The notes under the pieces were generated by a model that saw only the letters and a list, made by a program, of their open reading frames with translations, was not told the DNA's origin and did not search any database. A DNA stretch of 64,000 bases. Source: Pegea sp. RAD2-039. Its lineage: Eukaryota; Chordata; Thaliacea; Salpida; Salpidae. The translations under genes and the position numbers were made by a program. Where the stretch lies: positions 330,001 through 394,000 of the forward strand of contig JAQGEQ010000237.1 of NCBI GenBank assembly GCA_034620365.1, given 5' to 3'. Below are positions 2,633 to 63,596 of this stretch, piece after piece; position 1 is the first letter of the stretch; each line of letters opens with the position of its first letter.

Positions 2633-3120
2633 CACTATGGTGGATCCAAATAAAAACCTTAAAATTCATAAAAAGGGCACTAGAAACAGCGCACTTAACT
2701 ACAGACCAGTTTCGCTGACTTCAGTTATCTGCAGAACTCAAGAGCATATCATTCACAATCATATGACCAGTCATTTGATAGAGCACCATCTAATGTCTGA
2801 TGTCCACCATGGCCTCAGCACAATTAGTACATGGAAACAGCTGCCATCAGACATTGTCATGTCAGAATCACTCGCGTTGTTCAAGCAGAAGTTGAACCGT
2901 TATAATATTGCCAACATTGCCATTTCTAAACTGTGATTTTTTATATTATTAACATTATATGTAATTGTTCACTGTTATATGCTTTGAGTGCTATCAAAAT
3001 ACCATGTGTTACATCTTTTGCTTTCTATATTTCTAACTTAATAGATATTATTTGTGAGAATGTGCGTTAACGAGAGGTGCTCTCTTTAAGCACCCTCCTT
3101 CGCGTTTATTGAAATAAATG
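2633..3120 (+). mobile_element. Internally deleted LINE relic, copy 2
   Basis: It has the same structure as the relic at 178-676. Here the joined frame stays open for 104 codons (2622-2936), running from the RT fingers motif straight into the C-terminal TWKQLPSDIVMSES motif. The shared deletion point shows that this copy and the first descend from one deleted progenitor. The open frame is not evidence of function, since all catalytic residues are missing. Confidence 0.75.
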
Positions 3121-3253
3121 AATTACTCGCGCGATTTTATTCTTTTAAAGCCATTTTTAATTCCTATGTGACTTATTGAAACTCATCCAGCGTGGCTGTT
3201 CTTGGCTTTACTGCTTCTAATTTCAAAGTTAAATACTAAAAAATACAAAAAAG

Positions 3254-3326
3254 TGCCTCGAGTGAGGATCGAACTCACGACCTTGAGATTATGAGACTCA
3301 CGCGCTGCCTACTGCGCTATCGAGGC
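3254..3326 (-). tRNA. tRNA-Met(CAT), elongator
   Basis: The sequence matches the copy at 808-880. Its 5' flank on the transcribed strand keeps CTTCA(G/C)CG and, further out, the palindrome TGACCATTTTTGGTCA. Confidence 0.96.
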
Positions 3327-3560
3327 CGGTGAAGATGACCAAAAATGGTCAAATTTCGTATCAGGTGCTTCCTCCGCTCGCCTTAAGCCACGTGAGTTTT
3401 CAAATTTTTCGATTTCGATGAAAATAAAATTTTTATAATCAGTTTCATAAAAAGTGAATTTATTTATTTGTTGAAGCCTTAAATTTTTCAGATAAAATAT
3501 TTTTTATTTTTTTAGTTTCAACCAATTATTCGTCATTTAAAATATAAAAAAACCAAAAAG

Positions 3561-3633
3561 TGCCTCGAGTGAGGATCGAACTCACGACCTTGAGATTATG
3601 AGACTCACGCGCTGCCTACTGCGCTATCGAGGC
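3561..3633 (-). tRNA. tRNA-Met(CAT), elongator
   Basis: A third copy of the same tRNA, 234 bp beyond the previous one on the same strand. The pair 3254-3633, with its spacer, is repeated in inverted orientation at 23176-23555. Confidence 0.96.
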
Positions 3634-4336
3634 CGCTGAAGACAGAGACAAAATGGTCAAATTTCAAAAAAGACAAAATATCGATAAAAGTCAATAAAAA
3701 AGAATTTGCCAAAATTCTTTTCAGCTTTTTCATATTTCTTAGCCATCATTAAATTCAATAAAACTCGGACTGATTTATTAACCTACAGAAAAGGTTCTTA
3801 ACCTGCGGAAACACAAATTTTACTTCGTAGCTTAAGGTGCTGAAGGAGTTTTCTTTTGAAGTTTAATAACAAAAATCATAATTGTACCCCAAAAAATAAA
3901 TTTTGGGTTTTAGAGCCAAATACTAACTTGTTGATTAATCAGATTAATTCATTCAAATTCTTGATTTTCAATATAAAATAAACTTGAATTAGAATAATCA
4001 GTTTTAATGACATGATTATCATTTAACTTTTCTGTAGAATTTAAAGCACAACACCGATATTTAACAAAAAGTTTACAAACAGCAAATACAATTAACAATA
4101 ATAATAAGCTTCACTTACTGGATGTGTTATAAGTGATGATGTGAAAAACAAAGAAAGACACAAGTAAAATGGAAGAGCTTTCGGGGTCTCTTTACTTTAG
4201 CTGATTCCTATTTTTCTTCTCTATCCTTCAGTTTGCAAACGATTTTTTCTAACAGATTTCGTTGCGTGACTTTCTGTTAAAATACTTTTCAAAATATAAA
4301 CTCACTTTTTCTAAAAAATTTACATATTACTGATAT
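3634..4336. other. Spacer left of the 15-bp minisatellite
   Basis: Mostly A/T-rich. A short motif at 3829 (TTAAGGTGCTGAAGGAG) resembles part of the 113-bp satellite monomer. On the minus strand an acceptor-like site precedes about 60 nt of open frame near 4210-4275 (encoding RNLLEKIVCKLKDREEK in one phase). It could be a downstream exon of a gene reading minus through the minisatellite, but I cannot support this. Confidence 0.3.
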
Positions 4337-4353
4337 TGTGGCTTTTAATGCAA

Positions 4354-6472
4354 TAGCTGGTTCGATTGTTGATGACGTAGTTGTTGATGACGTAGTTGTT
4401 GATGAAGTAGTTGTCGATGACATAATTGTTGATGACGTAGTTGTTGGTGAAGTAGTTGTTGATGACGTAGTTGTTGGTGACGTAGTTGTTGATGACATAA
4501 TTGTTGGTGACGTAGTTGTTGATGACGTAGTTGCTGGTGACGTAGCTGTTGATGACGTAGTTGTTGATGACGTAGTTGTTGATGACGTAGTTGTTGGTGA
4601 CGTAGTTGTTGGTGACTTAGTCGCTGGTGACGTAGTTAGTGATGATGTGGTTGTTGATGGCGTAGTTGTTGATGACGTAGTTGTTGATGACGTAGTTGTT
4701 GATGACATAGTTGTTGATGACGTAGTTGTTGGTGACGTAGTTGTTGGTGACGTAGTTGTTGATGACGTAGTTGTTGATGACGTAGTTGTTGGTGACGTAG
4801 TTAGTGATGATGTGGTTGTTGATGGCGTAGTTGTTGATGACGTAGTTGTTGATGACGTAGTTGTTGATGACGTAGTCGTTGATGACGTAGTTGTTGGTGA
4901 CGTAGTTGTTGTTGAAGTAGTTGTTGATGACATAATTGTTGGTGACGTAGTTGTTGATGACGTAGTTGTTGGTGACTTAGTTGCTGGTGACGTAGTTAGT
5001 GATGATGTGGTTGTTGATGACGTAGTTGTTGGTGACGTAGTTGTTGGTGACTTAGTCGCTGGTGACGTAGTTAGTGATGATGTGGTTGTTGATGGCGTAG
5101 TTGTTGATGACGTAGTTGTTGATGACGTAGTTGTTGGTGACGTAGTTGTTGATGACGTAGTTGTTGATGACGTAGTCGTTGATGACGTAGTTTTTGATGA
5201 CGTATTTGTCGTTGACGTAGTTGTTGATGACGTACTTGTTGGTGACCTAGTTGCTGGTGACGTAGTTAGTGATGATGTAGTTGTTGATGACGTAGTTGTT
5301 GAGGACGTGGTTGTTGATGACGTAGTTGCTGGTTACGTAGTTGTTGATGACGTAGTTGTTGGTGACGTAGTTGTTGATGACGTAGTTGTTGATGACGTAG
5401 TTGTTGGTGACGTAGTTGTTGATGACGTAGTTGTTGATGACGTAGTCGTTGTTGAAGTAGTTGTTGATGACATAATTGTTGGTGACGTAGTTGTTGATGA
5501 CGTAGTTGTTGGTGACTTAGTTGCTGGTGACGTAGTTAGTGATGATGTGGTTGTTGATGACGTAGTTGTTGGTGACGTAGTGGTTGATGACGTAGTTGTT
5601 GGTGACGTAGTTGTTGATGACGTAGTTGTTGGTGACGTAGTTGTTGATGACGTAGTTGTTGATGACGTAGTCGTTGATGACGTAGTTTTTGATGACGTAT
5701 TTGTCGTTGACGTAGTTGTTGATGACGTACTTGTTGGTGACCTAGTTGCTGGTGACGTAGTTAGTGATGATGTAGTTGTTGATGACGTAGTTGTTGAGGA
5801 CGTGGTTGTTGATGACGTAGTTGCTGGTTACGTAGTTGTTGATGACGTAGTTGTTGGTGACGTAGTTGTTGGTGACTTAGTCGCTGGTGACGTAGTTAGT
5901 GATGATGTGGTTGTTGATGGCGTAGTCGTTGATGACGTAGTTGTTGATGACGTAGTTGTTGATGACGTAGTTGTTGATGACGTAGTTGTTGATGACGTGG
6001 TTGTTGATGACGTAGTTGTTGATGACGTAGTTGTTGGTGACGTAGTTGTTGATGACGTAGTTGTTGATGACGTAGTTGTTGATGACGTAGTTGTTGATGA
6101 CGTAGTTGTTGATGACGTATTCGTTGATGACGTAGTTTTTGATGACGTATTTGTCGTTGACGTAGTTGTTGATGACGTACTTGTTGGTGACCTAGTTGCT
6201 GGTGACGTAGTTAGTGATGATGTAGTTGTTAATGAAGTAGTTGCTGATGACGTGGTTGTTGATGACGTAGTTGTTGATGCCGTGATTGTTGATGACCTAG
6301 TTGTTGATGACGTAGTTGTTGATGACGTAGTTGTTGATGACATAATTGTTGATGACGTAGTTGTTGATGACGTGATTGTTGATGACCTAGTTGTTGATGA
6401 CCTAGTTGTTGATGACGCAGTTGCTGATGATGTTGTTGTTGATGACGTAGTTGTTGATGACGTAGTTATTTA
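4354..6472. repeat. 15-bp minisatellite, about 140 units, with higher-order structure
   Basis: The consensus unit is GTTGATGACGTAGTT with point variants. Longer blocks recur: the run containing GTAGTTTTTGATGACGTATTTGTC occurs at about 5172, 5667 and 6117, giving higher-order periods of 495 and 450 bp (33 and 30 units). On the plus strand one frame is open for 722 codons (VDDVV repeat). On the minus strand another reads STTTS-type mucin repeats but is broken by TAA at about 5332 and 5828 and just beyond the right edge near 6474. A stop-free unit whose length is a multiple of 3 gives long ORFs for free. I therefore call it a minisatellite, perhaps born from a minus-strand mucin exon. Confidence 0.8.
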
Positions 6473-8349: not shown

Positions 8350-9909
8350 ATGTTGAACACAAAGCAAGTTATTTGTACAATTTTGTTGTTGTGTTTGACA
8401 GGTGAGTTAACTAATTTACTTAATTTACTTAATTAATTACAATAACTGTTTTATGCAAAAAGCCATTTTGTTTCAAAGTTAAATTTCTTTTATTTCAGAA
8501 TCAAGTTTACAAATTCCTGCAACAACAAGAAGTATCCCCCAAGTAAAGACTCAAGCATCTACTGTAAGTATATCTAAACTACAATATAAAATATCAAACA
8601 ATAATAACTCAACAACAAAGGAACCAACTACAAATGAACCAACAACAACTGGACCAGCAACAAATGGACCAACAACCAGACCAACAACTAGACCAACAAC
8701 AACAAGACCAACAACCAGACCAACAACTAGACCAACAACAACTAGACCAACAACTAGACCAACAACAACAAGACCAACAACTAGACCAACAACAACTGGA
8801 CCAACAACAACTAGACCAACAACAAGACCAACAACAACTAGACCAACAACTAGACCAACAACAACTAGACCAACAACTAGACCAACAACAACTAGACCAA
8901 CAACTAGACCAACAACAACTAGACCAACAACAACAAACGGACACGCAGCAGGTTTGAAAATTTTGTAGCTTTATAATTATTTAAATTTTAGATTAAAACT
9001 TTTTTATTTTTTTTTATTAGATTCAAGAAGAACATGGAAAATTTTGGTAATTGTATTTGGAGTATTCATTTTTATTATTGTTGTGTCTTTTTTTGTTCAC
9101 AAAATGAAGTGAGTTAATTAACAACAAAAAATCTTCAAATTAAACTTCAAATTTTTGTAACAGAAACGATAAAAACTCAGAAGAATTTGATGTGGAAAGT
9201 CATCAAGTACAAGATGAAGAAGAAGCTGAACCAAGTTTTAAACAAGTAACTAAATTTCTATTTATATTTTTGTTGTTACAGTTTGTAGAAAAATATTTCT
9301 ATCTCTGCTTCGATGTTAATTCTTCAATTGAAAAGGATTTTATTAACTTAATTAAACTACAAATGTTTTAATAGTTTTCATTTTTTAGGAAATTAGCGAT
9401 ATTTTTGTAAATTATTAAATCTTATTTAGATAATCTAATCAATTTGTTAATTTTAATCATAAATAGAAAGTGTCAAAAATTTAAAAAGTTTTTCAGTCAG
9501 ATAAAATTTAGAATTAAATTTGTTTGAAACATTTTATTAATTTTTAATATTTTAAACATCGGTTTTTAAAAAATATGACCATTTTTGGTCATCTTCAGCG
9601 GCCTCGATAGCGCAGTAGGCAGCGCGTGAGTCTCATAATCTCAAGGTCGTGAGTTCGATCCTCACTCGAGGCACTTTTTTTGAAAATTTTTTTAAATAGA
9701 TTTTAGTGCAAGTAGGCGAATATATATTTTAAAATACTTTGAATTATATATTTAAGTTTTGGAAAATTTATTTTTGTAAATTTATTTTTGGAAAATTTAT
9801 TTTGGAAAATTATTTAAATATTTAAATTTTTCAGTTAAGCGGAGTTATAGAAGAATCACAACGCTCCACGATGACGTCATCACCATCTGGGCGTAGTCGA
9901 AGCAAATGA
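8350..9909 (+). CDS. Single-pass membrane mucin, five exons
   Basis: Exons are 8350-8401, 8499-8951, 9021-9108, 9164-9245 and 9835-9909; all phases agree and give 249 residues. Exon 1 encodes a hydrophobic signal peptide (CTILLLCLTE, residues 9-18). Exon 2 encodes a Thr/Pro-rich ectodomain of TTTRP and TTRP repeats to about residue 168, expected to be densely O-glycosylated. Exon 3 gives one membrane segment (about residues 175-197, starting WKILVIVFGV). Exons 4-5 give an acidic then Ser/Arg-rich cytoplasmic tail ending SGRSRSK. The fourth intron (9246-9834) would contain a tRNA-Met on the same strand. If it is not spliced, the protein reads on to a stop near 9370 in A/T-rich sequence, which looks intronic. 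Exon structure and sequence at both ends match the minus-strand mucin at 27.0-28.0 kb. The role is inferred to be a cell-surface coat or adhesion protein. The last exon is the least certain part. Confidence 0.78.
9601..9673 (+). tRNA. tRNA-Met(CAT), elongator
   Basis: Same sequence as the other Met copies, preceded by GACCATTTTTGGTCATCTTCAGCG and followed by T7. It lies inside the proposed last intron of the mucin gene, on the same strand. Confidence 0.96.
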
Positions 9910-10200
9910 ACGAAAATGGAGTTATTTATCAGCTGATCTGACGTCACTTCATCTCGTCATCGAATTATAATTAGTGTCTTGATGACGTCATCATCGTTTT
10001 CGTAACTTTTCTTCAATTTTTCAATTATTTTCGTATATCGATTATTTTGACAAATTTTTGATTTGTAGCAAGAATTTCTATAAATAAAATAAAAAAGTAA
10101 AAAACTTCTACTAAAAAATCCTAGTTTTTTTCATGGTGATTTTTTTTTAATTCTTAAACTTTCCGAATGAAGTCATCACCTTTAACAACATTTTCTTAAC
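9910..10200. other. 3' flank of the mucin gene with two TGACGTCA palindromes
   Basis: TGACGTCA occurs near 9941 and 9983, following the one inside the last exon near 9881. A tract with ATAAATAAAATAAA near 10080 could serve as the polyadenylation signal of the plus-strand mucin. No coding sequence is seen. Confidence 0.4.
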
Positions 10201-14677: not shown

Positions 14678-17600
14678 ATGACGTCATCATCAGAAAATGA
14701 AACTCATTCAAATTACATAAGAAGGGAAATCACCAGGTTGGTTCCACTTGAATGCACACCACAATTATTTTATGAATGACGTCATAGATTTGAAGGAGTA
14801 CACCCTAACATCTATGCCATTTATGAACTTCTTAATGACGTCACAAATGAAGAGCTTCAAACCCAAATCAGAGAGCATGTGATTAATATTGAAGGTGATG
14901 ACGTCATCAACTTTTTTGCCATTGGATTTTTTGTTCTTCATCTTCTGACTTTTGATCTTTAATATTTTCTGATCTTAATATCTATTCTTAATCTTCATCT
15001 TTTGATCTTCATCTTCTGATCTTCATCTTCTGATCTTCATCTTCTGATCTTCATCTTCTGATCTTCATCTTCTGATCTTCATCTTCTGATCTTCATCTTC
15101 TGATCTTCTTCTTCTGATCTTCATCTTCTGATCTTCATCTTCTAATCTTCATCTTCTGATCTTCATCTTCTGATCCTCATCTTCTGATCTTCATCTTCTG
15201 TTCTTCATCTTCTGATCTTCATCTTCTGATCTTCATCTTCTGATCTTCATCTTCTGATCTTTATCTTCTGATCTTCATCTTCTGATCATCATCTTCTGAT
15301 CTTCATCTTCTGATCTTCATCACCTCATCTTCATCTTCTGACCTTCATCTTCTAATCTTCATCTTCTGATCTTCATCTTCTGATCATCATCTTCTGATCT
15401 TCATCTTCTGATCTTCATCTTCTGATCTTCATCTTCTGATCTTCATCTTCTGATCTTCATCTTCTAATCTTCATCATCTGATCTTGATCTTCTGATCTTG
15501 ATCACCTGATCTTCATCTTCTGATCTTCATCTTCTGATCTTCATCTTCTGATCTTCATCTTCTGATCTTCATCTTCTGATCTTCATCTTCTGATCTTCAT
15601 CTTCTGATCCTCATCTTCTGATCTTCATCTTCTGTTCTTCATCTTCTGATCTTCATCTTCTGATCTTCATCTTCTGATCTTTATCTTCTGATCTTCATCT
15701 TCTGATCATCATCTTCTGATCTTCATCTTCTGATCTTCATCACCTCATCTTCATCTTCTGACCTTCATCTTCTAATCTTCATCTTCTGATCTTCATCTTC
15801 TGATCATCATCTTCTGATCTTCATCTTCTGATCTTCATTTTCTGATCTTCATCTTCTGATCTTCATCTTCTGATCATCATCTTCTGATCTTCATCTTCTG
15901 ATCTTCATTTTCTGATCTTCATCTTCTGATCTTTATCTTCTTATCTTCATCTTCTGATCTTCATCTTCTGATTTTCATCTTCTGATCTTCATCTTCTAAT
16001 CTTCATCTTTTAATCTTCATCAACTGATCTTCATTTTCTGATCCTCATCTTCTAATCTTCATCTTCTGATCTTCATCTTCTAATCTTCATCATCTGATCT
16101 TGATCTTCTGATCTTGATCACCTGATCTTCATCTTCTGATCTTCATCTTCTGATCTTCATCTTCTGATCTTCATCTTCTGATCTTCATCTTCTGATCTTC
16201 ATCTTCTGATCTTCATCACCTGATCTTCATCTTCTGGTCTTCTTCTTCTGATCTTCATCTTCTGATCTTCATCACCTGATCTTCATCTTCTAATCTTCAT
16301 ATTCTGATCTTCATCTTCTGATCTTCATCTTCTGATCTTCATCTTCTGATCTTCATCTTCTGATCTTCTTTTTTCAGATGCTTTTGTAAACAGTCAAGAA
16401 TGGACGAGTCATCGCTCGCTGTCTGAGATTCGATTAGTAAGTTGCCCCAGTTTCCACACGCGCCCCAAGTTTCACGTGATGACGTCACTAGGGAGTCTTA
16501 GGCGGCGTGACGTCAGGAAAATCGTCACTAGTCCATCGATATCTCACCGGAAGTTACGTAGATGAAGAATCACCGGAAGGAGGGCGTTTTAAACGCGATG
16601 TTTTTGTCGAAGGTGCCAACCATCTTCTGTTGCTACGTGATGAAGGAGGACCTCCTGAAATCGAGGTGATGACGTCATCGAATCACGTCACAAACTCATT
16701 TGAATATTTCAGTTTTGTACCTGGGTCGATGCAGTCCTATTAGTTTTTAATCTCACCGATCAAACGTCATTTCAAACGATGACGTCATACCTGAAACGTT
16801 TATGCAAATTACGTGACGTCACTAATCTTCCTCTGATCATAATTGGCTCACAAGGTAACGTTAAAATGACGTCATAAACACGTGATGACGTCATCGATTG
16901 TAGATAAAATCGACGTTGAACACCCACGTGTCATCAGTGACGTCACAGCGAAGAACCTAACAGCGGAATTACGTCATCAGTGCTTCGAATATTTCGAGAT
17001 TTGTTCAACTTATGGCTTGAATGTTGATCAAGTATTTCGTGAAGGTGACGTCATTATCGCGGTTATGACGTCACTCATCTATTACATCATCAGTTACGCG
17101 ATTAGTGGTTTTAAAACGTCATCGAAATCTTCCAATCCGATCTTCATCTGTTGATGATAACATGATGACGTCATCACCTTTACATCATCACCATAGCAAC
17201 ATCAACTCTTCATATGATCTCAAAACTGTCACAACACCGACACGTGAGTAATTGATGACGTCATCACTTCACTAATGACGTCATCTTACAGCAAATGACA
17301 TCAACGATAGCGGTTCTGTTTTAGGGGGTTTTTTCACCCCAAATCCAATTCGGAAGAGCCTACGTCATAAAAAATCCGGTTTATTTTCGGTTAGTGATGA
17401 TGATGTCATTTACAATCGTTTAATGATGACGTCATAGGGTCGTAAGAACAGCGATGCTGAAAAGAGGAACAGTTATCAGGCTGTGACGTCACCAACATCA
17501 GCTAAAGGTGAGATGGGATTTGGAAGAAGTATTCCTTTGAAACAGGGACACGTGATGAAGAAGAGCGGGAAGAGATTAGGAGGAAGAAGCGAATGGAGGA

Positions 17601-20144
17601 AGAAGTATTTGGTTTTAGATGAAGACGGACGTTTAAGTTATTACAATCATATTAATGTAAGTTTCAATCTTCTGATCTTCATCACCTGATCTTCACCTTC
17701 TGATCTTCATCATCTGATCTTCATCTTCTGATCTTCATCATCTGACCTTCATCTTCTGATCCTCATCTTCTGATCTTAATCTTCTGATTTTCATCTTCTG
17801 ATCCTCATCTTCTAATCTTCATCTTCTGATCTTCTTCTTCTGATCTTCATCATCTGATCTTCATCTTCTGATCTTCATCTTCTGATCTTAAATTCTCTCT
17901 CTAAAGAATCACAAACAACTTTTTTCATATTTTCGTGAACAATCGATTTATGACGTCATCGTTCATATGTTAAACTAGTCACGTGCTTTTTCGACTTTAT
18001 ACTCGAAGTGATTTATGACGTCGCTTTCAAGTAAACGCGTGCTTGATGACGTCACTATCAAGTAAACACGTGCTTGATGACGTCACTTTCAAGTAAACAC
18101 GTGCTTGATGACGTCACTTTCAAGTAAACACGTGCTTGATGACGTCACTTTCAAGTAAACACGTGCTTGATGACGTCATTTCAAGTAAACAAGTGCTTGA
18201 TGACGTCATTTCAAGTAAACAAGTGCTTGATGACGTCACTATCAAGTAAACACGTGCTTGATGACGTCACTATCAAGTAAACACGTGCTTGATGACGTCA
18301 AGCTAATTTAAGTAAATTGTAGGACTACATGGAAAATATTTGTAAACAAACTATCCACGTGGTCCACACAACTGTCAAAGTACCTGGGCGACTATCGTCC
18401 ATATCTTCACCAATCATCAAATCATCCGGTAATTCCCCTAAAAATTTCCCCTAAAACGAAAAGTGCCCCTAAAACTATTTCTTCAGATAATTGTAGCGGA
18501 AACTTTGAATTTCAAATTGTTTCAATTTCCGGTGATACTTGGCATCTGATGACGTCATCAATCGAACAACGCGATGCTTGGGTTGATGTGATTGGTCGAA
18601 TGTATCTTCAAACTGTTCAAAATCATAAAAGTTCTCGATCTAGTCGTAGTGATGACGTCACATTAGAAGATTTAATTAATTCGATGACGTGTGTGGAGTG
18701 TGGTGCTGATAAACCGACTTGGGCGTCTTTAAATCTTGGTTGCCTCATCTGTATCGACTGTTCGGGTATTCACCGAAATCTAGGAACTCATATATCGCGC
18801 GTTCGGTCACTAGGTCAGTGATGACGTCATTTGATTTAAAAAAATCAAAATTTTTTCAATTTTTTAGAATATTTATTTTTTTAGATATTTATTAAATTTA
18901 TATAATTTATTAATAAAATTTAACGATGACGTCATTTATATAGAACTTGACGAATGGCCATTTGAATATATTCAATTATTAAAGAGAATCGGGAATAAAA
19001 TTTCCAACGAAATTTGGAATCCAACATTACGTCAATACTCGCCGTCGATGACGTCATCTCGTGACGATTTTATTCGAGATAAATACATCAGACGTCTTTT
19101 TATCGCTCCTTTGTTACCAGAACATCATGATATTGGTAATATGACGTCATCAGTGTCTTTCTCGATGTAATATTTTTGTTGGTTGCTAGGTAACAGTTTA
19201 ATAGAAGCAATAAAAGCCGATGATATGAAAAAATTTCTTCATTTAATTGCTTATATCAAATATAATGACGTCAATAAACAATTTGGTAAGTGATGACGTC
19301 ATCATTGGTTTATTTATTTGATTTAATAAAAAAATTTATTTTAAATTTTTGGAGTTTTTTCGTTGATTCAAAAATTCCTAATAAATTTAACAACTTCGTA
19401 AAAACTTCTTCTTCAAAATAAATGTTTCTGTCATCAAATGATTGATCTGAAATCAGAAAAGTTGAAATTTCAGTTTGTTTTTATTATTGTTGTTTTTTTC
19501 ATTGTTATTTTTTATTCTTGTTTTTTATTGTTGTTTTTTATTCTTGTTTTTTATTCTTGTTTTTTTATTATTGTTTTTTCATTTTTGTTTTTTTTATTGT
19601 TGTTTTTTTCATTGTTTTTTTTATTGTTGTTTTTTTTTATATTCAAAGTTTAATTAATAATCGAAAAAAGAATAAACAAATAAATCAAATTATTAAAAAA
19701 ATTTTTTTCTATCATTTTTATTATTCGTATCATTAACTAATTTTATTAACAAATTAATGACGTCATCACTGTTTTATTAAAATCATTTTTTTACTTGAAC
19801 AGGAATAGAACAAAAAACTTTACTTCATTTTGCGGCGCAAACTGGAAACCTCTGTTTTTGTCAATTACTACTTTGGGTAAGTCCCCTAAATTTACATATC
19901 AGCTGAACGATGACGTCATCAATTACAGCTGAACGCCGATCCACAAATCTTGGATGGTTTAGGGGAAACCCCAACAAATTTAGCGAAACGTCATCAACAT
20001 TTTCACTGTTTACAACTTCTACTAACATCTCAAGTTACTAAGCAACATCAAATGACGTCATCACATCGAAATATCGTTGCTGTGACGTCATCATCGTCAC
20101 GTACACCACGTAATCGTAACCTCATGTATACTAGTGCTATTTAA
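14678..20144 (+). CDS. AGAP: AGAP-type ArfGAP with GTPase-like, PH and ankyrin domains (centaurin gamma)
   Basis: Exons: 14678-14736, 14788-14894, 16378-16436, 16492-16665, 16713-16854, 16904-17044, 17094-17243, 17292-17389, 17438-17656, 18323-18428, 18487-18813, 18944-19135, 19190-19285, 19803-19876, 19929-20144. All phases agree and give 719 residues (human AGAP1 is about 800-860). The N-terminal block has [16 protein letters not shown] and FVNSQEW, both AGAP hallmarks. The GTPase-like domain starts near residue 76, with P-loop GGVTSGKS (79-86) and [11 protein letters not shown] domain spans about 340-453. The ArfGAP zinc finger has Cys487, 490, 507 and 510 (CxxC-x16-CxxC), followed by the arginine-finger motif IHRNLG. 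Ankyrin repeats span about 592-690. The family activates GTP hydrolysis on Arf1-class GTPases in endosomal and AP-complex traffic. The start ATGACGTCATCATCAG itself contains the palindrome common here; an acceptor-like GTGTAG lies 3 nt before the ATG. A polyadenylation signal candidate is AATAAA at 20434. Introns are short except 2, 9 and 13. Confidence 0.95.
14936..16372 (+). repeat. 14-bp pyrimidine-rich tandem array in AGAP intron 2
   Basis: About 100 units of TCTGATCTTCATCT with sparse variants (CACC, AATC, ATTT forms). It fills nearly all of AGAP intron 2 and runs directly into the 3' splice site at 16377. Longer blocks recur inside it (for example the variant string at about 15170-15480 again at about 15600-15830), so it has grown by segmental duplication as well as unit slippage. 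Confidence 0.93.
17668..17890 (+). repeat. Second 14-bp array in AGAP intron 9
   Basis: The same TCTGATCTTCATCT unit as in intron 2, about 15 copies including CATC and CTTC variants, starting 12 bp after the splice donor of exon 9. The shared unit implies transfer of the repeat between introns of one gene. Confidence 0.88.
18026..18304 (+). repeat. 31-bp minisatellite carrying CACGTG and TGACGTCA in each unit
   Basis: Nine units of CAAGTAAACACGTGCTTGATG plus ACGTCACTTT lie in AGAP intron 9, with single-base length variants. Most units contain an E-box CACGTG and all contain the CRE-type palindrome TGACGTCA, at fixed spacing. It looks like an amplified transcription-factor site array, but the regulatory role is inference. 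Confidence 0.85.
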
Positions 20145-20500
20145 TGACGTCATCATTGATTGTATGACGTCATGTTAGCTTCGATATCTGTCCACTTTGT
20201 TATTTGTTCGTATACACAAAGAAATCGTGCTTGTGACGTCATCAGCGCTTAATAGCGTCTGGTGATGTTTCTTTGTTGTGTTTGGTGCTTATCTGACCGT
20301 CAAGACCAAATTTGGTTTATTTTTTACGTTTTGGGCCATTTTAGAATCCGACCATTTTGATAAATTTTTGTAATTTGCATAAAAATGAAATTGAATCATC
20401 AATTATAAATGTGTTTGATGGAAATTTGAGTTAAATAAAAGATTTTAAAAATACTTTGAAAAAAAAAAAGATTTTTATAAAAAGATTTTCGAAATATTAA
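20145..20500 (+). other. AGAP 3' untranslated region
   Basis: Three more TGACGTCA palindromes follow the stop codon (about 20145, 20165 and 20233), the last of this island. AATAAA at 20434-20439 is the likely polyadenylation signal. Beyond it the sequence reverts to featureless A/T until the LINE fragment at 20868. Confidence 0.5.
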
Positions 20501-20867
20501 AAATAATATAAATATCTTCATAATATCATTTTTAATAGTTTGTTTAAATAAGAATAATTACTAGATTTACAAATATTAAGAAAAAAGGTTTTTGTAAAAT
20601 AAAAGTTGAAAAAAAAAAAAAATTATTAAAATATTAATTTTTTAAATTCGCGAAAAAAAGGGTTTCATAAAAACTTTTTGAAATTTTATTTATCGAGACT
20701 AATAATTTTTATTTAAAAAGTATTTATGTTTAATCACTAAAAATATTTTAATTATTAAATTATTCTAAATTTCATCAAGATTAATTAAAAATAAAAATCT
20801 TTTTATAATATAAATTATATTAATAGTAAAAGTAGTTTATATATTATCCGATATATTCATTTATTAC

Positions 20868-21262
20868 AATAAACGCGAAGGAGGGTGCTTAAAGAGAGCA
20901 CCTCTCGTTAACACACATTCTCACAAATAACATTTATTAAGTTAGAAATATAGAAAGCAAAAGATGTAACACGTGACATTTCAGTAGTCCTCAAAACATA
21001 CAACAGTGAACAATTACATAGAATGTTAATAATATAAAAAAGGAAAAAATTCACAGTTTAGAAATGACAATATTGGAAATATTATAACATTTCAATTTCT
21101 GTTTGAACAACGCGAGTGATTCTGACATGACAATATCTGATGGCGGCTGGTTCCAAGTACTAATTGTGCGGTATGAGAAAAAATTTGCTCTGACCAATGT
21201 ACCAGGTGATATAGGCTTATTAAGATGTAATGTGTGTCGTCTGAGCTGATATAACTTGAAGG
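20868..21262 (-). mobile_element. LINE 3' fragment, copy 3
   Basis: Reading minus, it carries the ORF2 C-terminal region (QLRRHTLHL-, LVRANFFSYRT- and W.QPPSDIVMSES-like peptides, with stops) and then the family 3' end (GAGGTGCTCTC, CACCCTCCTTCGCG, AATAA tail). It is 5'-truncated, as expected of target-primed reverse transcription. Confidence 0.75.
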
Positions 21263-21660
21263 ATGTAATGTGTTTTGTTATATTTTAGAATCTTTAAAAA
21301 TTGAATCATCTAATTGATCTTTATCAAAAGATTTTGTAAGATTCTTTTTCTAAAATTAAAAAGTTCCAATTTGGAAATCTGTAAATTTTAGATCAAATCA
21401 AAACTGTATTTGAAATTTCAAAACTTTTACATAAAAACTAATGGCTTAAAGCCAATAAGTGAAAAAATTACTAAATTTAAAGAAAATTGTTTCAAAATGA
21501 CGAAATGATGCTGAAAAGATCAACAGATCTCTACAGAAGATCAACAGATCTTTACAGAAGACCAACAAATTAAGATTAAAAAGCCTTCTTTGTTGTAATG
21601 GAAATTTGAAGCTTTTACACAAAACATAAATGACAAAAAAATCAAATTTAACACAAATAA
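21263..21660. other. AT-rich spacer
   Basis: No gene seen. A small direct repeat (GATCAACAGATCT(C/T)TACAGAA) occurs at about 21519-21565. Confidence 0.4.
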
Positions 21661-25915: not shown

Positions 25916-26335
25916 TCAGTGTGATGATTTCTTTTCTATTAGTCCTTCCCTCAATTTATACCAACTCAGACGACACACATTACATCTTAGTAAGCCCATA
26001 TCACCTGGTACGTTAATCAGAGCGAATTTTTTCTCATATCTCACAATTAGTACATAGAACCAGCTGCCATCAGATGTTGTCATGTCAGAATCACTCGCGT
26101 TGTTCAAGCAGAAGTTGAATCGTCATAATATTGCCAATATTATCATTTCTAAACTTTTAATTTTTCTTTTTTAATATTATTATAACATTCCATGTAATTG
26201 TTATATGTTTTGAGGACTACTGAAATGCCATGTGTTACATCTTTTGCTTTCTATATTTCTAACTTAATAGATGTTATTTGTGAGAATGTGTGTTAGCAAG
26301 AGGTACCCTCCTTCGCGTTTATTGAAATAAAATAA
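25916..26335 (+). mobile_element. LINE 3' fragment, copy 4
   Basis: It encodes the C-terminal ORF2 motif LYQLRRHTLHLSKPISPGTL followed by FFSYLTIST, then W.QLPSDVVMSES after a frame change. The family 3' end and an AATAAAATAAA tail follow. This copy retains the region missing from the deleted relics at 178 and 2633, and so helps define their deletion endpoint. Confidence 0.78.
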
Positions 26336-26960
26336 ACAATTTCTGGTATCGACGTGGAAGAATTTGATATTGTTCTTGCAAGTATCTTTGAGATGATCGG
26401 TCAATATTGCGTTTGCCTTTCGATAATATAAGATTTAATTAGATGAATTGGAGTTAAAATTTTATAAAGTTATATTTATTTCTAATTTAAAGAATTGGGT
26501 TTATTTTGCAGAACTGATATAAGCTTAAAATTGAAAGAAAATTTATTTAAAAGATAATTTGATGAAAAAAAGTTTAAAAAACTTTAATATTCGAAATTTT
26601 GAGATTTTTTTTATAAAACATCAATCATATATTTAAACTCAGCAAAAGATTATTAATAAATTTCAAGCAGATAAGGTCAATTCTTTTCCACCTTTAATAA
26701 AATTCATATCACAATGATTCTTATCTTATTCTGTTCTAAATGGAAATCAATATTCAGTGTTTCCAAAACACAAATTTAAAAAATTAAACTTTTTTTAAAT
26801 TTTTGGAAAAGTATTTTGAAATAAGCCTCAAAGACAACAACTAAAGTTATTTCAAAAATTCGAAATCTAATATCAACAAACCGTTCTAAACATTACCATA
26901 AACCTTAAAACGTGGTTCTTATTCAATAAATAAAAAATGTTTTTATTATAGCAACTGATT
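26336..26960. other. Intergenic DNA with a 31-codon coding-like island
   Basis: Directly after the LINE tail, 26340-26433 reads ISGIDVEEFDIVLASIFEMI and onward to a stop, with better codon complexity than its surroundings. It might be an exon remnant carried or interrupted by the LINE. The rest is A/T-rich. Confidence 0.25.
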
Positions 26961-33052: not shown

Positions 33053-35271
33053 ATGTCAAAAATTAGTTTCTTTGAATCTCTACAAGATTTAAAACTTGAT
33101 AAGAAGTATCTGATGGATGCAGAGACCTTTCGAAAGAAGTATCTGATCTTAGATATCATCGCAAAAGGAACAGAAGGAAAAGTATTTAAAGGTATGAAAA
33201 AAAAATAAAAATAAAATAGAATCATTAAAATCCAAATATAAATTATTAGATATCCCATAATGACGTTTACAGGTGATGACGTCATACGTGGTGACGTCAT
33301 CAACGGTGATTTATGTTTGTTGTAAAAACGAAAGTATTTTGTATATTTATATATATAAAAAAATTACAAAAATATTTTAATTAAAAATTAAACATTGAAA
33401 AAAAAAACTTCTTTTTCGATTTTGAATAAAAATATTCAAACTTATTTTGAAATTCTAATATTAGTAAAATAAACTCCAAATTTTATGTAATTGAATAAAT
33501 AAAAGTAAAATAAATAAAATTTACTTTCCATACTGTGATGTTTTTCATTATAACTTTATGATTTGTATAATTATTATTTAAAAATTAAATTTATTTCAAT
33601 ATTTAAAGAAAATCTTTGTATATTTTTATGATATTAAAGATTACTTTTTGTAGATACAATGTTGTCTTCAATTTAATCGAGATAGAAATAATAGACTAAT
33701 TTTTTGTTAGCTTTGAATAGATTAACAAACGCTCCTGTGGCTTGTAAAGTTGTTTCATCTTTCGACTGTTTCTGGATCGAACTTGATGAGAAGATTGAAC
33801 CTAAAGAAGTTTACTTATTAAGAAAAGCTTCAAAAGATAATGAAGGTTTTTTTGAAAAATTTAATTTTTTAAATAATTTTCATCAATGTTCAAAAATATA
33901 TTCAAACTTTTTAAAGGTTTCAGTTTATTTTTTGTAAATATTTTCTTTTAGTTTCAAATATGTTTTTAAATACTTTAAAAAGTTCAGAAATTTTTAGAAC
34001 TTTAAACTTTTTTAAATTTTTGTTTAGGTGTTATTAAGTTTCATGAATATTGTGCAAACTCTAAAAAAACTATAATTGTCATGGATTATATTGAAAATAT
34101 GATCAGTTTATTTGAATACTTCTCCAATCAGGTGACTAAAAACGGTTCAAATCTAGAAAAAGAAGCAAAAGTGAAAAAAATTATAATTCAGGTAAAAAGT
34201 GTTTCATGTAAAAATTTGAATAAATAAATTTATTTTTTCTGTTTGGAAACACTTTATTTAATTTTCAAAAAATTGTAGCAAAATTTTAATCAAATTAATT
34301 AAATGTTTGCTTTGACATTTTTAAATATTTTATTTTTTTAGTTTATAGTAACCTTTTGTAAAATAAACTTTTAAATTTAGTAAACAATTTTTTTCGAAAC
34401 TAATTAAATTTTTTTAGCTTGTGAACATTGTTTCAAAATTTCATGAAAAAAATATCTTCCACCGAGACATAAATTCAAAAAACATCTTAATTGATCCAAG
34501 AACACAGAAAATAAAAATTATTGATTTTGGAAATGGAACTTATTTAACGGTTTGCGAAAAACTTTTAAATTTTTCTAAAATTTCTTATTTTATTTCTAAC
34601 TTAGTTAATAGTTTCTTAAAATGTTTTCTTGAACTAACTTAACAGAATTAGTTTAAAAGAATTTTTAGTTATCAACATAATATTATTATTTATAAAACTC
34701 TAATATTTAGTGACTATTTCCATATATGGTATTGGCAAGTCTACTAAACGCAAGATTAAGTACAAGACTCATTTGAAGATCTTTTTAGTGGTTCCGTTGG
34801 TAGAGGAGTTTTATAAGTCAAATTTGAAGCTATCAGTTCATAAATAAAATTATCAGCTTTCTAAATTAAAAAATAATTTTGGGCCATTTTAATAAAAAGC
34901 CAAAATGTTTTGTTTATTTTCTGAAAATCTAAAATGTTTTCAAACAACTATATTAAAAATTTTATGATAATATATCAAAAAAATAAACTTTTTAAAATAA
35001 AATATTAAAAACTAAATAACTTTTTACATTTGATGTTGATGAATAAAAGATCTTAAATTTGCAGAACAATAATTTAAGACTCCGAAAAGAAGATATCAAT
35101 TCGATTGGACGACTCACACAACATCTGATTGGTTTTCTGATAACTCCAAAACCTTTAAATAAATATCTTTCAAAAGATTGTTTGAAATTTTTAAAAGAAA
35201 CTAACATTAAACTTGAGAAGATTACAATTAATTTAAAAGACCTTTTAAATACATCTTTCTTAAAATTTTAA
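33053..35271 (+). CDS. PIM-like protein kinase lacking the activation segment; predicted pseudokinase
   Basis: Exons 33053-33191, 33711-33845, 34028-34191, 34418-34549 and 35065-35271 join in phases 1, 1, 0 and 0 to give 258 residues. Retained landmarks: glycine loop AKGTEG (37-42, first Gly replaced by Ala37), ATP-lysine Lys59 in PVACK, alpha-C Glu79 in PKEVYLL, HRD (161-163), Asn168 and DFG (182-184). The hinge, HRD and DFG neighbourhoods (GVIKFHEY, NILIDP, IIDFGNG) resemble PIM kinases. Missing: the catalytic-loop lysine (HRDxK is HRDIN, Asn165), and the whole activation segment with the APE region. Only 18 residues separate the DFG Asp from Asp200 of DINSIG (DxWSxG position) instead of roughly 40. 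The C-lobe end (LSKDCLKFL, LKDLLNTSFL) is normal. I searched 34550-35064 by eye for a missing exon and found none that splices in frame. ATP binding is possible; phosphotransfer is unlikely. A missed exon is the main alternative. Confidence 0.8.
33250..33302 (+). promoter_or_regulatory. TGACGTCA pair in kinase intron 1
   Basis: Two CRE-type palindromes about 17 bp apart (near 33276 and 33292), with a half site (TGACGTTT) upstream, stand alone in otherwise A/T-rich intron 1. They are the only such sites between 20.3 and 55.3 kb that I found. Confidence 0.5.
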
Positions 35272-50800: not shown

Positions 50801-51977
50801 TAACTTGTCTTACAAACAAATCTTGTGTTTGGTGGTTGAAGATGCTGAAGACTCACTTGCTTCTAGCACCTTGACTTGTAAAAACTCTTCGACCACCAAC
50901 ACCAAGTCAATAATAACTTGTCTTACAAACAAATCTTGTGTTTGGTGGTTAAAGCTGCTGAAGACTCACTTGCTTCTAGCTCGTTGACTTGTAAAAACTC
51001 CTCGACCAACAACATCAAGTCGATAATAACTTGTCTTACAAACAAATCTTGTGTTTGGTGGTTGAAGGTGCTGAAGACTCACTTGCTTCTAGCACCTTGA
51101 CTTGTAAAAACTCCTCGACCAACAACATCAAGTCAATGATAACTTTTCTTACAAACAAATCTTGTGTTTGGTGGTTGAAGGTGCTGAAGACTCACTTGCT
51201 TCTAGCACCTTGACTTGTAAAAACTCCTCGACCAACAACATCAAGTCAATGATAACTTGTCTTGCAAACAAATCTTGTGTTTGGTTGTTGAAGGTGCTGA
51301 AGACTCTCTTGCTTCTAACACCTTGACTTGTAAAAACTCCTCGACCAACAACATCAAGTCAATGATAACTTTTCTTACAAACAAATCTTGTGTTTGGTGG
51401 TTGAAGGTGCTGAAGACTCACTTGCTTCTAGCACCTTGACTTGTAAAAACTTCTCGACCACCAACACCAAGTCAATACTAACTTGTCTTGCAAACAAATC
51501 TTGTGTTTGGTGGTTGAAAGTGCTGAAGACTCACTTGCTTCTAGCACCTTGACTTGTAAAAACTTCTCGACCAACAACACCAAGTCAATAATAATTTGTC
51601 TTACAAACAAATCTTGTGTTTGGTGATTGAAGGTGCTGAAGACTCGCTTGCTTTTAGCATCTTCACTTGTAAAAACTCCTCGACCACCAACACCAAGTCA
51701 ATAATAATTTGTCTTACAAACAAATCTTGTGTTTGGTGGTTGAAGGTGCTGAAGACTCGCTTGCTTCTTACACCTTGACTTGTAACAATCTCAGTTTAGT
51801 TTAATCAAATTGTTTATAATTTAAATTTACTTCTAATCAATTTTCATCAAATTTTTTTTCTAGTTCTTAACAATTGGAATCGGAATTTCTATCATGGTTG
51901 CTTACGCCGTTTTAAAAGGAGTTTTTACATCAAAAAGCAGTTTGTTGGCTCGACAATTAGGAACTGTTAGGAAGTAG
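44893..51977 (+). CDS. MTX1: Metaxin (MTX1/3-like), mitochondrial outer-membrane import factor
   Basis: Exons 44893-45290, 45947-46205, 47308-47436 and 51864-51977 join in phases 2, 0 and 0 to give 299 residues (human metaxin 1 is about 317). The family is related to yeast Sam37 and acts with SAM50 in beta-barrel protein assembly in the mitochondrial outer membrane. Diagnostic features: WNLPSIDPNCLAVVAYAKF at the N-terminus, YNADYYLTTKQQADTLAF, the GST-like C-terminal motif FFGSLPTTIDAAVYGYLGLL followed by LRAPL, and a C-terminal membrane anchor (about residues 264-283, ending VLKGVF) with a basic tail LARQLGTVRK. Intron 1 contains a LINE 3' end. Intron 2 carries inverted satellite-like monomers. 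Intron 3 (4.4 kb) holds the 113-bp satellite. If exon 3 is not spliced at 47436 it stops at 47460 and loses the anchor. Metaxin 1 versus 3 cannot be settled by eye. Confidence 0.93.
45655..45730 (-). mobile_element. LINE 3' end fragment, copy 5, in metaxin intron 1
   Basis: Only the last ~75 bp of the family remains: the tail, the complement of GCACCCTCCTTTGC, and GAGATGCTCTC. Severe 5' truncation is typical of LINE insertions. Confidence 0.7.
46262..46385. repeat. Two facing satellite-like monomers in metaxin intron 2
   Basis: GTCCTCAGCACCTTCATCCA (minus-oriented) near 46265 and TCTACAAACAAATCTTGTGT, TTGATAGTCGAAGGTGCTGA, GGACTCACTTGTT (plus-oriented) at 46331-46385 are diverged parts of the 113-bp monomer. 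They lie 1.1 kb upstream of the array and could pair as a hairpin. Confidence 0.7.
47463..51786 (+). repeat. 113-bp satellite array, about 38 copies, inside metaxin intron 3
   Basis: The monomer contains CACCTTGACTTGTAAAAACT, CCTCGACCAACAACACCAAG, TCAATAATAACTTGTCTTAC, AAACAAATCTTGTGTTTGGT and GGTTGAAGGTGCTGAAGACT. Two main variants alternate (AGCACCTTGAC versus AGCTCGTTGAC; ACACCAAG versus ACATCAAG). A variant dimer at about 48321 recurs exactly 8 units later at 49225, and similarly at about 50805, showing higher-order duplication. Single-base deletions occur near 49602 and 49868. Edge copies after 51250 are more diverged, as expected of an array homogenised from the middle. The many overlapping 60-codon frames are by-products of a unit that is not a multiple of 3. 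Confidence 0.97.
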
Positions 51978-53245: not shown

Positions 53246-53246
53246 T

Positions 53247-54679: not shown

Positions 54680-56555
54680 TTTATTATTATTTGTGTTTTG
54701 AAAAAATAAAAAGTTTTTTTGAAGTTATAATTGTCTGAAATACTCAAAAGATTTATTCTTTTATAAGAACTTATATAGTTAGATATTAGCTTCCAAATAA
54801 TCATAGTTTCATTTTTCAATTAATTTTATTCTAAGTTATTTTAAAAATAAGAAATTAAATTCAGATAACTTGATGTTACATTGTGCTCTAAATAGTTTTA
54901 TAAAATTATCATCATAAATCTTATTTCTTTATATATTATATAAACCATTCAAAATTAGTTATTTAAATCAAATATATATTTCTATATCTTATGAATTTTT
55001 ATTTAATGAGCTCTATGACATGATTTTTATTCTTTTTATATAACTTTTGACATTCAAAATAAATTTTTAAGCATTTGAATATCAATAAAATCTTTCCAAC
55101 TTTGTTGATATTTTCACGAGTTTAGAAACTTTTTCAATTAAAACCATGAATAAAAAATTAGCCAAGGTGTACCTTTATCAGAAACTATTTAAAAAAATGA
55201 TGATATCAAATAATTATTTGTAGGAAATTAAAATTTGTAATTTTAAACAATTAATTTAAGAAAATCAGAATTTTTTTAATTTCATTTTTTTCTTGGAAAC
55301 AAAATTATTAATAAAAAAAGTTTTTTAATAAAAGTGTTTTGATAAGGTGATGTATGATGACGTCATTAAGGTGCTGACGTCATTATATTTTTTGATGGAA
55401 TAAAAAGATATATTTTAAAGTAATTTTTATTGATACTTTTGATTAAAAAGCTTTTTTAAGCTGCAAAAATATTTTTTTCTCAAAAATTGGAAATCTACTT
55501 TTAATTTATTAAATTCTGAATATAAAAAGCTTTACAAGTGTGCTTGCTTGCTAGATTTTTGATCTAATAGATCTAAAGAAATTAGAAATCAATTTTATTA
55601 ATTGTTTTTATAATAATTAGAACAAAAAATTCAAATCAGAAATATTTTTGGAAATTTCTTGAATGTCTTCAAATTATTTATTATTAGGAATTTAAAATTA
55701 TAATTGAATATCAGAATATTTATATATTTTGTTTGCTAATTTGTGAGAACAACTTTTGTTGATTAATGTTTAAAATTTGATAAAATTGAATTGTGCAAAA
55801 ATGATTACTTAATTGTAAGATTTCAAAAAGTTTATCCAATATTTTAAATTGCAAAATCAAAATCTTCATTTTAAGCAGTTTAATATCAAAATAGGGAATT
55901 ACCCCAAGCTGAAATATTTCAGAAAAAATTTAACTAAATTTAAAAAAAATCAAATTATTTTGCACTCAATAGCGAAATAAAAATATTATTTTCAAAGTAA
56001 TAAATAAATATAAAATAATAATATGAAATACTAAATGAAAATAACTTTACATTAAGTTGAATTTATTTAAGTGTATAATATGAATATTAAAACTTTAATT
56101 TTAAATTAGATAAAACTAATTCAAAATCATTTCCCAAATTCGATTTCAAAAAGAATTAAAAGTTCTTTTCCTAATAATAGTTTAATTGTTAGCACCTTAA
56201 AATAACAACCTCAAAAAATTGTCTACAAAATCATTGTAACGTCACTAGCTTGTCATTTCAAATCTTCAAAAAAGTTATTTTTCTAGTTTTTATAAAAGAA
56301 AATGATTTATTGATAAGATTATGAGTTGAAGAAAACTTTTTGATAAAATTTACGGTTAAATTGTTAAACATTAAACAGTTACTCTTTAGCATCATCTAAC
56401 GGTTGATTTGTTATTTACATTTTCTTTATTCAACATTCTGTTTTTTGGTTTATTGGTTTATGGGAACTACTAAAAGGTTTCATGTTTCTATATTTGTATC
56501 CTAATTATATATAACAGGTATATAATATTATTTGTAAGTGTGTTAGAGTTAGAGT
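54680..56555. other. Intergenic DNA with an isolated TGACGTCA site
   Basis: A/T-rich without a supported gene. ATGATGACGTCATTAAGGTG and then GCTGACGTCATTAT at 55357-55387 carry two palindromes 18 bp apart. Confidence 0.45.
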
Positions 56556-57900: not shown

Positions 57901-57966
57901 ACAAAAGAATTGATGACGTCACGAGTGAACCAGTTATAAAAACTAGGTGAAACAAACATAGTACTC

Positions 57967-58391
57967 GTTGTCATGGAAACAACTTTAAACGTGAGTTTGT
58001 CACGTGGTTAACAACTTTTGAAAATAACTTTGAATAAAAAACTCAACAAACAGAAGAACGTAACTTGATGACGTCATAACTAATCGTTGTAAAAGTTGGT
58101 TTTGAAAAGATTTGAAATAATTAATTTTTAAGTAGAAATTTTTTGATATTTTATCTAAAGACAAAAAAATTTTTAAATTGAAACGAAATATTTTGAGATC
58201 ACGTGACGAGAAAACAGTAGAAAGCTGGTTGGCGTGAGAAAATGTGAAAAGTGATGAGAGATAACAATTATCATTTAAAAGCTTCATTTAATTTAAATAT
58301 AAATTAATCGAAACCAACTTTATTGGTAGTGACGTCACTCGTGTGATGACGTCATCACAATACATCAGTTCTTTTTAATCGAAGATTTTTT
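57967..58391. repeat. ~430-bp duplicated regulatory-like unit, copy 1
   Basis: The core (58096-58391) is about 95 percent identical by eye to 63300-63596; the outer part (57967-58095) is alignable but diverged. It contains an X-box-like GTTGTCATGGAAAC (57967), CACGTGGTTAAC, TGACGTCA near 58069, ATCACGTGACGAG near 58198, and the pair GTGACGTCAC and TGATGACGTCATCA at 58328-58355. A minus-strand ORF (58000-58287) spans it, but the other copy does not keep that frame to the end. I favour duplicated promoter or enhancer DNA over a coding exon. Confidence 0.7.
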
Positions 58392-58439
58392 TTTTAAGTT
58401 TTGAAAATCAAATCCAAAACTTCTCAAAATTTTTTTTAT

Positions 58440-58475
58440 TATAGTGACGTCATTAAAATAATGACGTCATCTTTC
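58440..58475. promoter_or_regulatory. Extra TGACGTCA pair beside duplicated unit copy 1
   Basis: GTGACGTCATTAAAATAATGACGTCAT at about 58444-58470 has two palindromes 17 bp apart. It is not present after copy 2. Confidence 0.45.
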
Positions 58476-63160: not shown

Positions 63161-63596
63161 GTTGCCATGGAAACAGCCCTTAGCCGCGTTTTATTCACGT
63201 GGTTTCAAAATAATTTGTTGTCAAACTTCCAATAAATGTAACATGATTAGGTGATGACGTCATCATTCAAAGTTGTTCAACTTAAACAGTTTTTTTTTGT
63301 TGGTTTTGAAAAGAATTGAAATAATTAATTTTTAAGAAGAAATTTTTTTGATATTTTATCTAAAGACAAAAAATTTTTTAAATTGAAACGAAATATTTTG
63401 AGATCACGTGACGAGAAAACAGTAGAAAGCCGGTTGGCGTGAGAAAATGTGAAAAGTGATGAAAGATAACAATTATCATTTAAAAGCTTCATTTAATTTA
63501 AATATAAATTAATCGAAACCAACTTTATTGGTAGTGACGTCACTCGTGTGATGACGTCATCACAATACATCAGTTCTTTTTAATCGAAGATTTTTG
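63161..63596. repeat. ~430-bp duplicated regulatory-like unit, copy 2
   Basis: It starts with a better X-box (GTTGCCATGGAAAC, 63161-63174), then CACGTGGTTTC, GATGACGTCATCAT near 63254, ATCACGTGACGAG near 63404 and the GTGACGTCAC / TGATGACGTCATCA pair near 63535-63562. The order of sites is the same as in copy 1, 5.2 kb away in direct orientation. Confidence 0.7.

Follow-up and report, generated by a model that had tools for sequence, protein, structure and literature searches.

The AGAP Locus and Its Palindrome

The window analyzed here, a stretch of 64,000 nucleotides from the salp Pegea sp. RAD2-039 (assembly GCA_034620365.1, contig JAQGEQ010000237.1, positions 330,001 to 394,000 of the forward strand), contains an AGAP-like gene occupied throughout by copies of the eight-letter palindrome TGACGTCA. 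The gene (Table 1) has an open coding sequence of 2160 nt, and all 14 introns follow the GT-AG rule. Its protein carries the Pfam domains Ras, PH, ArfGap and ankyrin in the order of AGAP proteins, and the best PDB matches of its GTPase part are CENTG3, AGAP1 and centaurin gamma 1. The exons were set by eye and by homology and the start codon was inferred, the model being drawn from the genomic sequence.

The window contains 60 copies of TGACGTCA and 34 of ATGACGTCAT. The AGAP locus holds 44 of the 60, with starts from 14679 to 20234, in agreement with the 40 to 45 octamers estimated in the original prediction. Base composition, it was also claimed, would yield far less than one copy; the Markov expectation for the AGAP segment is indeed 0.05 at order 0 and 0.17 at order 1, rising to 1.05 at order 2 and 15.9 at order 3, although all four models were fitted on the segment itself, motif copies included, which affects order 3 especially. 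The remaining 16 copies, against an order-1 expectation of 0.32, all lie in five small groups (at 9.87–9.99, 33.3, 55.4, 57.9–58.5 and 63.3–63.6 kb), and the near-emptiness described for the rest of the window is borne out. The 24 words one mismatch away from TGACGTCA occur 18 times combined. A metaxin-like gene (Tom37 Pfam match) elsewhere in the window sits in DNA without the motif.

Within the AGAP locus, 14 copies are exonic, 14 fall in short introns, 13 in long introns and three past the stop codon, in what is presumably the 3' untranslated region (UTR), the first of these beginning immediately after the stop. The rebuilt gene model thus preserves both the figure first given for introns carrying the motif, 13 of 14, and the reported presence of copies in exons and the 3' UTR. 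Density reaches 21.8 per kb in the 11 short introns (47–130 nt) and 6.5 per kb in the coding sequence; nine of the 13 copies in the three long introns belong to a 31-bp tandem array. Introns 2 and 9 also contain 14-bp arrays, ATCTTCATCTTCTG and ATCTTCTGATCTTC (14991–16368 and 17667–17889), which resemble GATGAAGATCAGAA repeats at another sampled locus. A second AGAP copy was sought for signs of motif gain or loss, and the sole match was the window locus itself (1261 bases).

Abundance and Sharpness of the Word

The assembly searched comprises 105.7 Mb in 387 contigs. It contains 27,792 exact copies of TGACGTCA, roughly 29-fold more than the 969 of the reversed-word control, and 11,048 copies of ATGACGTCAT versus 121. 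When one mismatch is tolerated, the excess shrinks to 64,917 versus 28,668, and the 24 one-mismatch words alone are raised just 1.3-fold (37,125 versus 27,699). That the word is iterated and sharply exact genome-wide is a firm result. The original prediction had described a highly iterated palindrome confined to certain loci; the iteration and the strong clustering stand, while a word with 27,792 copies is not confined, only very unevenly distributed.

Sixteen sampled 10-kb stretches held from 0 to 32 copies each, with six at zero and two at 32, four of the 16 having been chosen inside a zone already known to be dense. These local densities, together with 5,280 close pairs (8–38 bp from start to start) across the genome, rule out a uniform background.

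Shape of the Site

The octamer is the core of a longer site, the 14-bp dyad TGATGACGTCATCA. Over 202 sites, the half-site flanks show T in 66% at position -3, G in 55% at -2 and A in 73% at -1, where T is found in only 2%; no preference extends further out. The two sides vary independently, two-sided matches occurring at 0.60, 0.33 and 0.48 versus the 0.57, 0.38 and 0.47 expected under independence. Symmetric, independent half-site flanks are what a DNA-binding homodimer would leave, as at a bZIP site of the CREB/ATF kind.

Near-variants were counted in the 82 bins holding a copy. The commonest one-mismatch class is TGATGTCA/TGACATCA (23 versus 2.4 expected), and TGATGTCA is given as the deamination variant of the methylated cyclic AMP response element (CRE) in PMC1796609. 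The CRE variants TTACGTCA/TGACGTAA are likewise raised (14 versus 1.3), and the remaining ten classes number 0–4 each. The AP-1 site TGAGTCA is not enriched in these bins (6 versus 6.6 expected).

A genome search with the bZIP family PF00170 gave 12 matches, whose basic regions we take to resemble the CREB, JUN, FOS, C/EBP, NFIL3/PAR, NRF, XBP1 and ATF6/CREB3 types, one of them being presumably a CREB-like bZIP exon (C14:685225); on this reading the complement looks like an ordinary animal set. Of the explanations first proposed, that of a CREB/ATF-type recognition site has gathered the most support from sequence, through the dyad, its independent flanks, the lack of an AP-1 excess and the CREB-like exon, with binding itself predicted.

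Copies within Coding Sequence

The 14 exonic AGAP copies are restricted to the two stop-free phases, nine being read as [M/V]TS and five as DV, and nothing else. Four of them lie in the GTPase domain and are ungapped in the alignment with CENTG3, codons having been replaced in place. Two further copies come from an RFC1-like gene: one, ungapped against its PDB homolog, reads RMTSAVS for KVTGNVS, and the other reads RDDVMEYLN for KAIVAESLN, with no gap there in an alignment gapped elsewhere. These six (four AGAP, two RFC1-like) are the closely aligned exonic copies, the others being unaligned or aligned loosely. Because they are ungapped against PDB homologs, the six were gained by substitution and not by insertion.

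The abundance of the word and its concentration in the bodies of certain genes, where it even replaces codons, hint at some force spreading or preserving it. That the copies are instead the debris of insertions, such as transposon ends, target sites or introners, is scarcely credible to us. Part of the copies are located in tandem arrays, as insertion might leave them; an insertion origin is nevertheless ruled out for the six aligned copies, and the absence of flank preference past 3 bp leaves no sequence shared outside the site.

Composition of the Dense Stretches

Bins of 500 bp with at least two copies (n = 41) have a GC content of 0.346 and a CpG observed/expected ratio (o/e) of 1.30, or 1.18 with the motif masked, versus 0.269 and 0.67 in motif-free bins (n = 399). 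The usual definition of a CpG island demands a GC content above 50%. The dense bins, at 0.346, fall short of this, while their o/e exceeds the accompanying limit of 0.6, a limit which the sparse bins, at 0.67, pass as well. With the motif masked, the o/e is 1.28 in the AGAP coding sequence, 1.13 in the 3' part of an IBtk-like gene, 1.04 in a tankyrase-like gene and 0.76 in the RFC1-like gene. The IBtk-like gene, a putative assignment with a BTB Pfam match, changes along its length: its 3' 2.7 kb (1–2700 of the sampled locus) contain 30 copies at a GC content of 0.348, and the next 1.7 kb (2700–4400) contain none, at a GC content of 0.262 and an o/e of 0.44. The tankyrase-like label rests on frames read by eye and an ankyrin Pfam match.

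One might then suppose that composition is the passive cause, unmethylated and CpG-rich gene segments simply retaining every CpG word, TGACGTCA included. Most CpG words are in fact raised in dense relative to sparse bins (CGCG 7.3-fold; CGTC 5.3-fold, even after masking of the motif), as is CACGTG. We nonetheless find this explanation improbable. Across 264 kb of sampled sequence, TGACGTCA reaches about 99 times its order-2 expectation versus 9 times for the next 8-mer palindrome, TCACGTGA; the sample consists of the window, arrays masked, and further loci, of which L001–L008 had been found through the motif and L012–L015 come from the dense zone. Moreover, neighboring words sharing the same CpG are scarcely raised, and the flank preference extends outside the CpG.

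Methyltransferase Genes and a Possible Methylation-Linked Palindrome

A search with PF00145 returned 11 matches, seven of them in open frames of 832–873 codons; four lie at loci that were read (L030–L033, on contigs C57, C249 and C32), with more on C32, C52, C262 and C49. One such protein, scanned against Pfam, combines BAH and DNA_methylase domains and is on this basis DNMT1-like. Two DNMT1-like genes lie about 5 kb apart on opposite strands of C57, and the number of these genes is unusual for a maintenance methyltransferase. The motif is absent from the four DNMT1-like loci read.

These genes bear on the possibility that a DNA methyltransferase, acting with a repair process, creates and maintains the word, as in a methylation-linked palindrome of the HIP1 kind. 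The presence of several DNMT1-like genes would suit such a process, as would the place of TGATGTCA/TGACATCA as the commonest one-mismatch class. DNMT1, on the other hand, acts on CpG generally and not on an octamer, and CpG transitions are losses of the word rather than gains; we consider the possibility quite improbable. The suggestion that the word is the target of a DNA-modifying enzyme retains weak support, from the DNMT1-like genes and the CpG transitions, with no sign of an enzyme specific to TGACGTCA; for a nicking enzyme, also suggested, no supporting result turned up, though no search was aimed at one.

The closest genomic precedent is HIP1 of cyanobacteria. According to PMC4390886, HIP1 too is an octameric palindrome iterated genome-wide far over expectation, genes included, with a possible tie to methylation. 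HIP1 is least deviant at its two central positions in the same text, whereas here, in the bins with a copy, the central CpG deviates most (the 23 occurrences given above), and the present word differs further in its setting within an AT-rich animal genome, its gene-wise clustering and its extended, bZIP-like flanks.

Spacing, Tandem Arrays and Hairpins

Among the close pairs, 466 are spaced at 20 bp and 207 at 22 bp, compared with a mean of about 159 for the other 29 spacings. Tandem arrays inflate these counts: of the 50 places listed for each spacing and read by eye, 13 belong to arrays at 20 bp and 25 at 22 bp. In a sample of 74 pairs, 13 are at 20 bp, seven at 17 bp and seven at 30 bp; the excess at 20 bp has a Poisson probability of 4.3e-06, for a spacing picked post hoc and with some repeats remaining. 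General helical phasing was considered and dropped, a weak signal near period 10 in the all-pair distances (power 4.2–5.1) not having been upheld by the spacing test.

Two repeats may be mentioned alongside. A 15-bp array, TTGTTGATGACGTAG, occupies positions 4366–6467 of the window in 140 units that are open on both strands and contain the half-site TGACGT, and at C1:3616251–3616650 four copies of the motif stand in 20-bp tandem within a putative intron about 110 nt long.

Ten of the 11 short AGAP introns were folded, that of 130 nt being left out. In four, a stem of 10–11 bp joins two copies (one pair consisting of an intact copy and a TGATGTCA), with z from -1.44 to -3.87. The copies in short introns might accordingly act in RNA, pairing into hairpins that aid splicing. 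The other six introns, five with a single copy and one without, have z between -1.02 and 1.29, and since hairpins occur in only four of ten, RNA pairing is not the general cause; with 14 AGAP copies exonic and the two flank sides behaving independently, we judge a role of this kind very unlikely.

Interpreting the Palindrome

The reading we favor, tentatively and at rather less than an even chance, is that TGACGTCA is a bZIP-recognized element which substitution has produced repeatedly and which has been retained throughout CpG-rich gene bodies. The word would form the core of the dyad TGATGACGTCATCA, recognized by a bZIP homodimer of the CREB/ATF type. Sites would have arisen again and again through base substitution and then been retained in the transcribed bodies of some genes, at places as different as the start codon, coding exons, tiny introns and the presumed 3' UTR. 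Bodies filled in this manner would constitute long intragenic homotypic CRE clusters, rich in GC and for the most part in CpG, within a genome that is CpG-poor and has DNMT1-like genes. A bound bZIP factor, often at two sites 20 bp apart, may keep the body of the gene open and free of methylation; selection would favor many redundant sites. The sequence itself shows the excess and sharpness of the word genome-wide, its clustering in gene bodies, the 14-bp dyad and its independent flanks, the replacement of codons at six aligned copies, the GC- and CpG-rich setting and the surplus of pairs at 20 bp; the binding, the selection upon it and the role in chromatin are all three things we infer.

Several observations weigh against this. 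Coding exons and the region past a stop codon are unusual locations for regulatory sites, and a single enhancer would need far fewer than the 44 copies of this one gene. The link with CpG is uneven, the dense RFC1-like stretch lying at 0.76 when motif-free stretches of the window reach 0.81 and 0.90. TpG/CpA stands at 1.11 in CpG-poor bins versus 1.15–1.20 in dense bins and, being no higher where CpG is scarce, indicates that deamination alone cannot explain the CpG contrast. CACGTG, of which TCACGTGA is the extended form, is also enriched genome-wide (13,371 versus 2,786 for the reversed control), and the excess is thus not wholly specific to one word. A 10-bp period is absent from the sampled spacings (power about 1.8). 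Lastly, motif columns vary at 0/160, 5/136 and 19/192 in three tandem arrays, compared with 40/280, 14/204 and 25/336 for the spacer columns: the motif is clearly less variable in one array, slightly less in a second and no less in the third, where the C of the central CpG is changed in nine of 24 units. The arrays were found by exact match and are a biased sample for such a comparison.

A different account of the same facts, a form of the gene-conversion drive originally listed as one possibility, is that the motif spreads itself, the site or its bound protein biasing meiotic gene conversion or repair toward itself; copies would then become fixed wherever recombination extends, in exons too, until protein function sets a limit. 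It would explain why codons of conserved domains were replaced in place, and the higher density in the short AGAP introns than in the coding sequence is what would be expected if constraint limits such a force; the GC-richness of the dense DNA and the sharp exactness of the word also fit. Initiation hotspots, however, normally lose their motif through conversion, and the duplicate blocks compared (58.1/63.3 kb in the window, and the tankyrase-like gene) carry by eye the same copies on both sides, neither gained nor lost, and as a comparison are uninformative; those of the tankyrase-like gene (L015 6243–6440 and 7760–7957) are 93% identical and each has a copy. Yeast offers evidence on both sides. 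The heptamer ATGACGT is an Atf1-Pcr1-dependent meiotic hotspot inside an open reading frame of fission yeast, and yet the canonical CRE in ade6 is unbound by Atf1-Pcr1 and makes no hotspot (both reported in PMC9775316); M26/CRE hotspots also occur in budding yeast, according to PMC3534124. On balance we regard self-spreading as rather unlikely. A fuller version, in which a bZIP-recognized 14-bp word propagates itself as the winner of biased conversion wherever gene bodies are open and recombine, overwrites conserved-domain codons genome-wide and would stand beside HIP1 or the uptake sequences of bacteria as their eukaryotic counterpart, is on the same evidence an unlikely proposition.

Several known systems resemble the palindrome in part. 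Homotypic clusters of transcription factor sites gather many sites of the same type within a few kb, as here; they are usually promoters or enhancers, whereas here the sites, tens to a gene, lie in the transcribed body and coding exons. In bacteria, DNA uptake sequences are short words iterated by transmission advantage, coding sequence included, and serve as an analogy only, no uptake process being known to us in animals. The CRE bound by CREB/ATF bZIP dimers, the closest known site, is the identical octamer, its variant TGACGTAA is raised here too, and the deamination variant is shared (PMC1796609), but here entire gene bodies are filled, coding exons included. The M26/CRE hotspot of fission yeast, the closest parallel in recombination, has its heptamer contained in ATGACGTCAT and acts within an open reading frame, according to PMC9775316, through single sites, in contrast to the saturation seen here at the level of sequence. 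No precedent for saturation of animal gene bodies by TGACGTCA was found among titles and abstract openings of the open-licence PMC literature, and the word is absent from the available part of PMC4362205.

Should the sites be regulatory, gene bodies would be tiled, coding sequence included, with the site of one factor, at a price paid in protein sequence (6.5 per kb in the AGAP coding sequence). Should they reflect drive, transmission bias would be carrying a short binding word through an animal genome, of which we know no other case, and the question of why hotspot motifs persist would become directly testable. The roughly 28,000 identical sites provide great statistical power under either reading, and in-place codon replacement offers an internal measure of constraint.

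Other Features of the Window

Table 1. Positions of the AGAP-like gene and of TGACGTCA copies and related features in the window.
Feature	Position	Strand	Basis
AGAP-like gene (719 aa) between start and stop codon, with 15 exons and 14 introns	14678..20144	+	gene model, Pfam, PDB
TGACGTCA in the AGAP locus, 44 copies	14679..20241	.	word count and Markov expectation
ATGACGTCAT overlapping inferred start codon, reads MTSS	14678..14687	+	gene model
Exon 2 copy, reads NDVT	14836..14843	+	gene model
P-loop copy, GGVTSGKS versus GNLSSGKS in CENTG3, ungapped	16508..16515	+	PDB alignment, gene model
Two exonic copies, ungapped: 16780, FQTMTSY for FQTVYNY; 16814, RDVTNLP for RNASEVP	16780..16821	+	CENTG3 alignment
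Intron 5 (49 nt), pair of copies spaced 19 bp, hairpin z -1.44	16855..16903	+	gene model, folding
Exonic copy, ISDVTAK for IDDSRAR, ungapped	16938..16945	+	CENTG3 alignment
Intron 6 (49 nt), pair of copies spaced 20 bp, hairpin z -3.87	17045..17093	+	gene model, folding
Intron 7 (48 nt), pair of copies spaced 20 bp, hairpin z -3.86	17244..17291	+	gene model, folding
Intron 8 (48 nt), intact copy at 17427 together with a TGATGTCA, hairpin z -2.14	17390..17437	+	gene model, folding
Further exonic copies	starts 17166, 17484, 18550, 18653, 19049, 19266, 20053, 20083		gene model
Intron 9 tandem array of 9.5 units of 31 bp, with 9 intact copies	18008..18300	.	repeat scan, gene model
Three copies behind stop codon, presumed 3' UTR (starts 20145, 20165, 20234)	20145..20241	+	gene model
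Small group, 3 copies	9872..9990	.	word count
Small group, 2 copies 15 bp apart	33277..33299	.	word count
Small group, 2 copies 17 bp apart	55358..55382	.	word count
Small group, 6 copies	57914..58469	.	word count
Small group, 3 copies, within 98% duplicate of 58095–58390	63255..63559	.	word count, duplicate comparison

An aquaporin identity considered for the piece at 39.7–41 kb was dropped when a Pfam scan gave no family. Dispersed repeat fragments lie at 359–682, 2818–3129, 20849–21263, 25947–26336, 53240–53454 and 56560–56844, and one frame related to them has a sub-threshold reverse-transcriptase match. Ten tRNA matches fall between 808 and 30954, seven of them equal in score and several inside dispersed repeats. 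A 113-bp satellite array spans 47475–51785 in 38 units with 96% matches.

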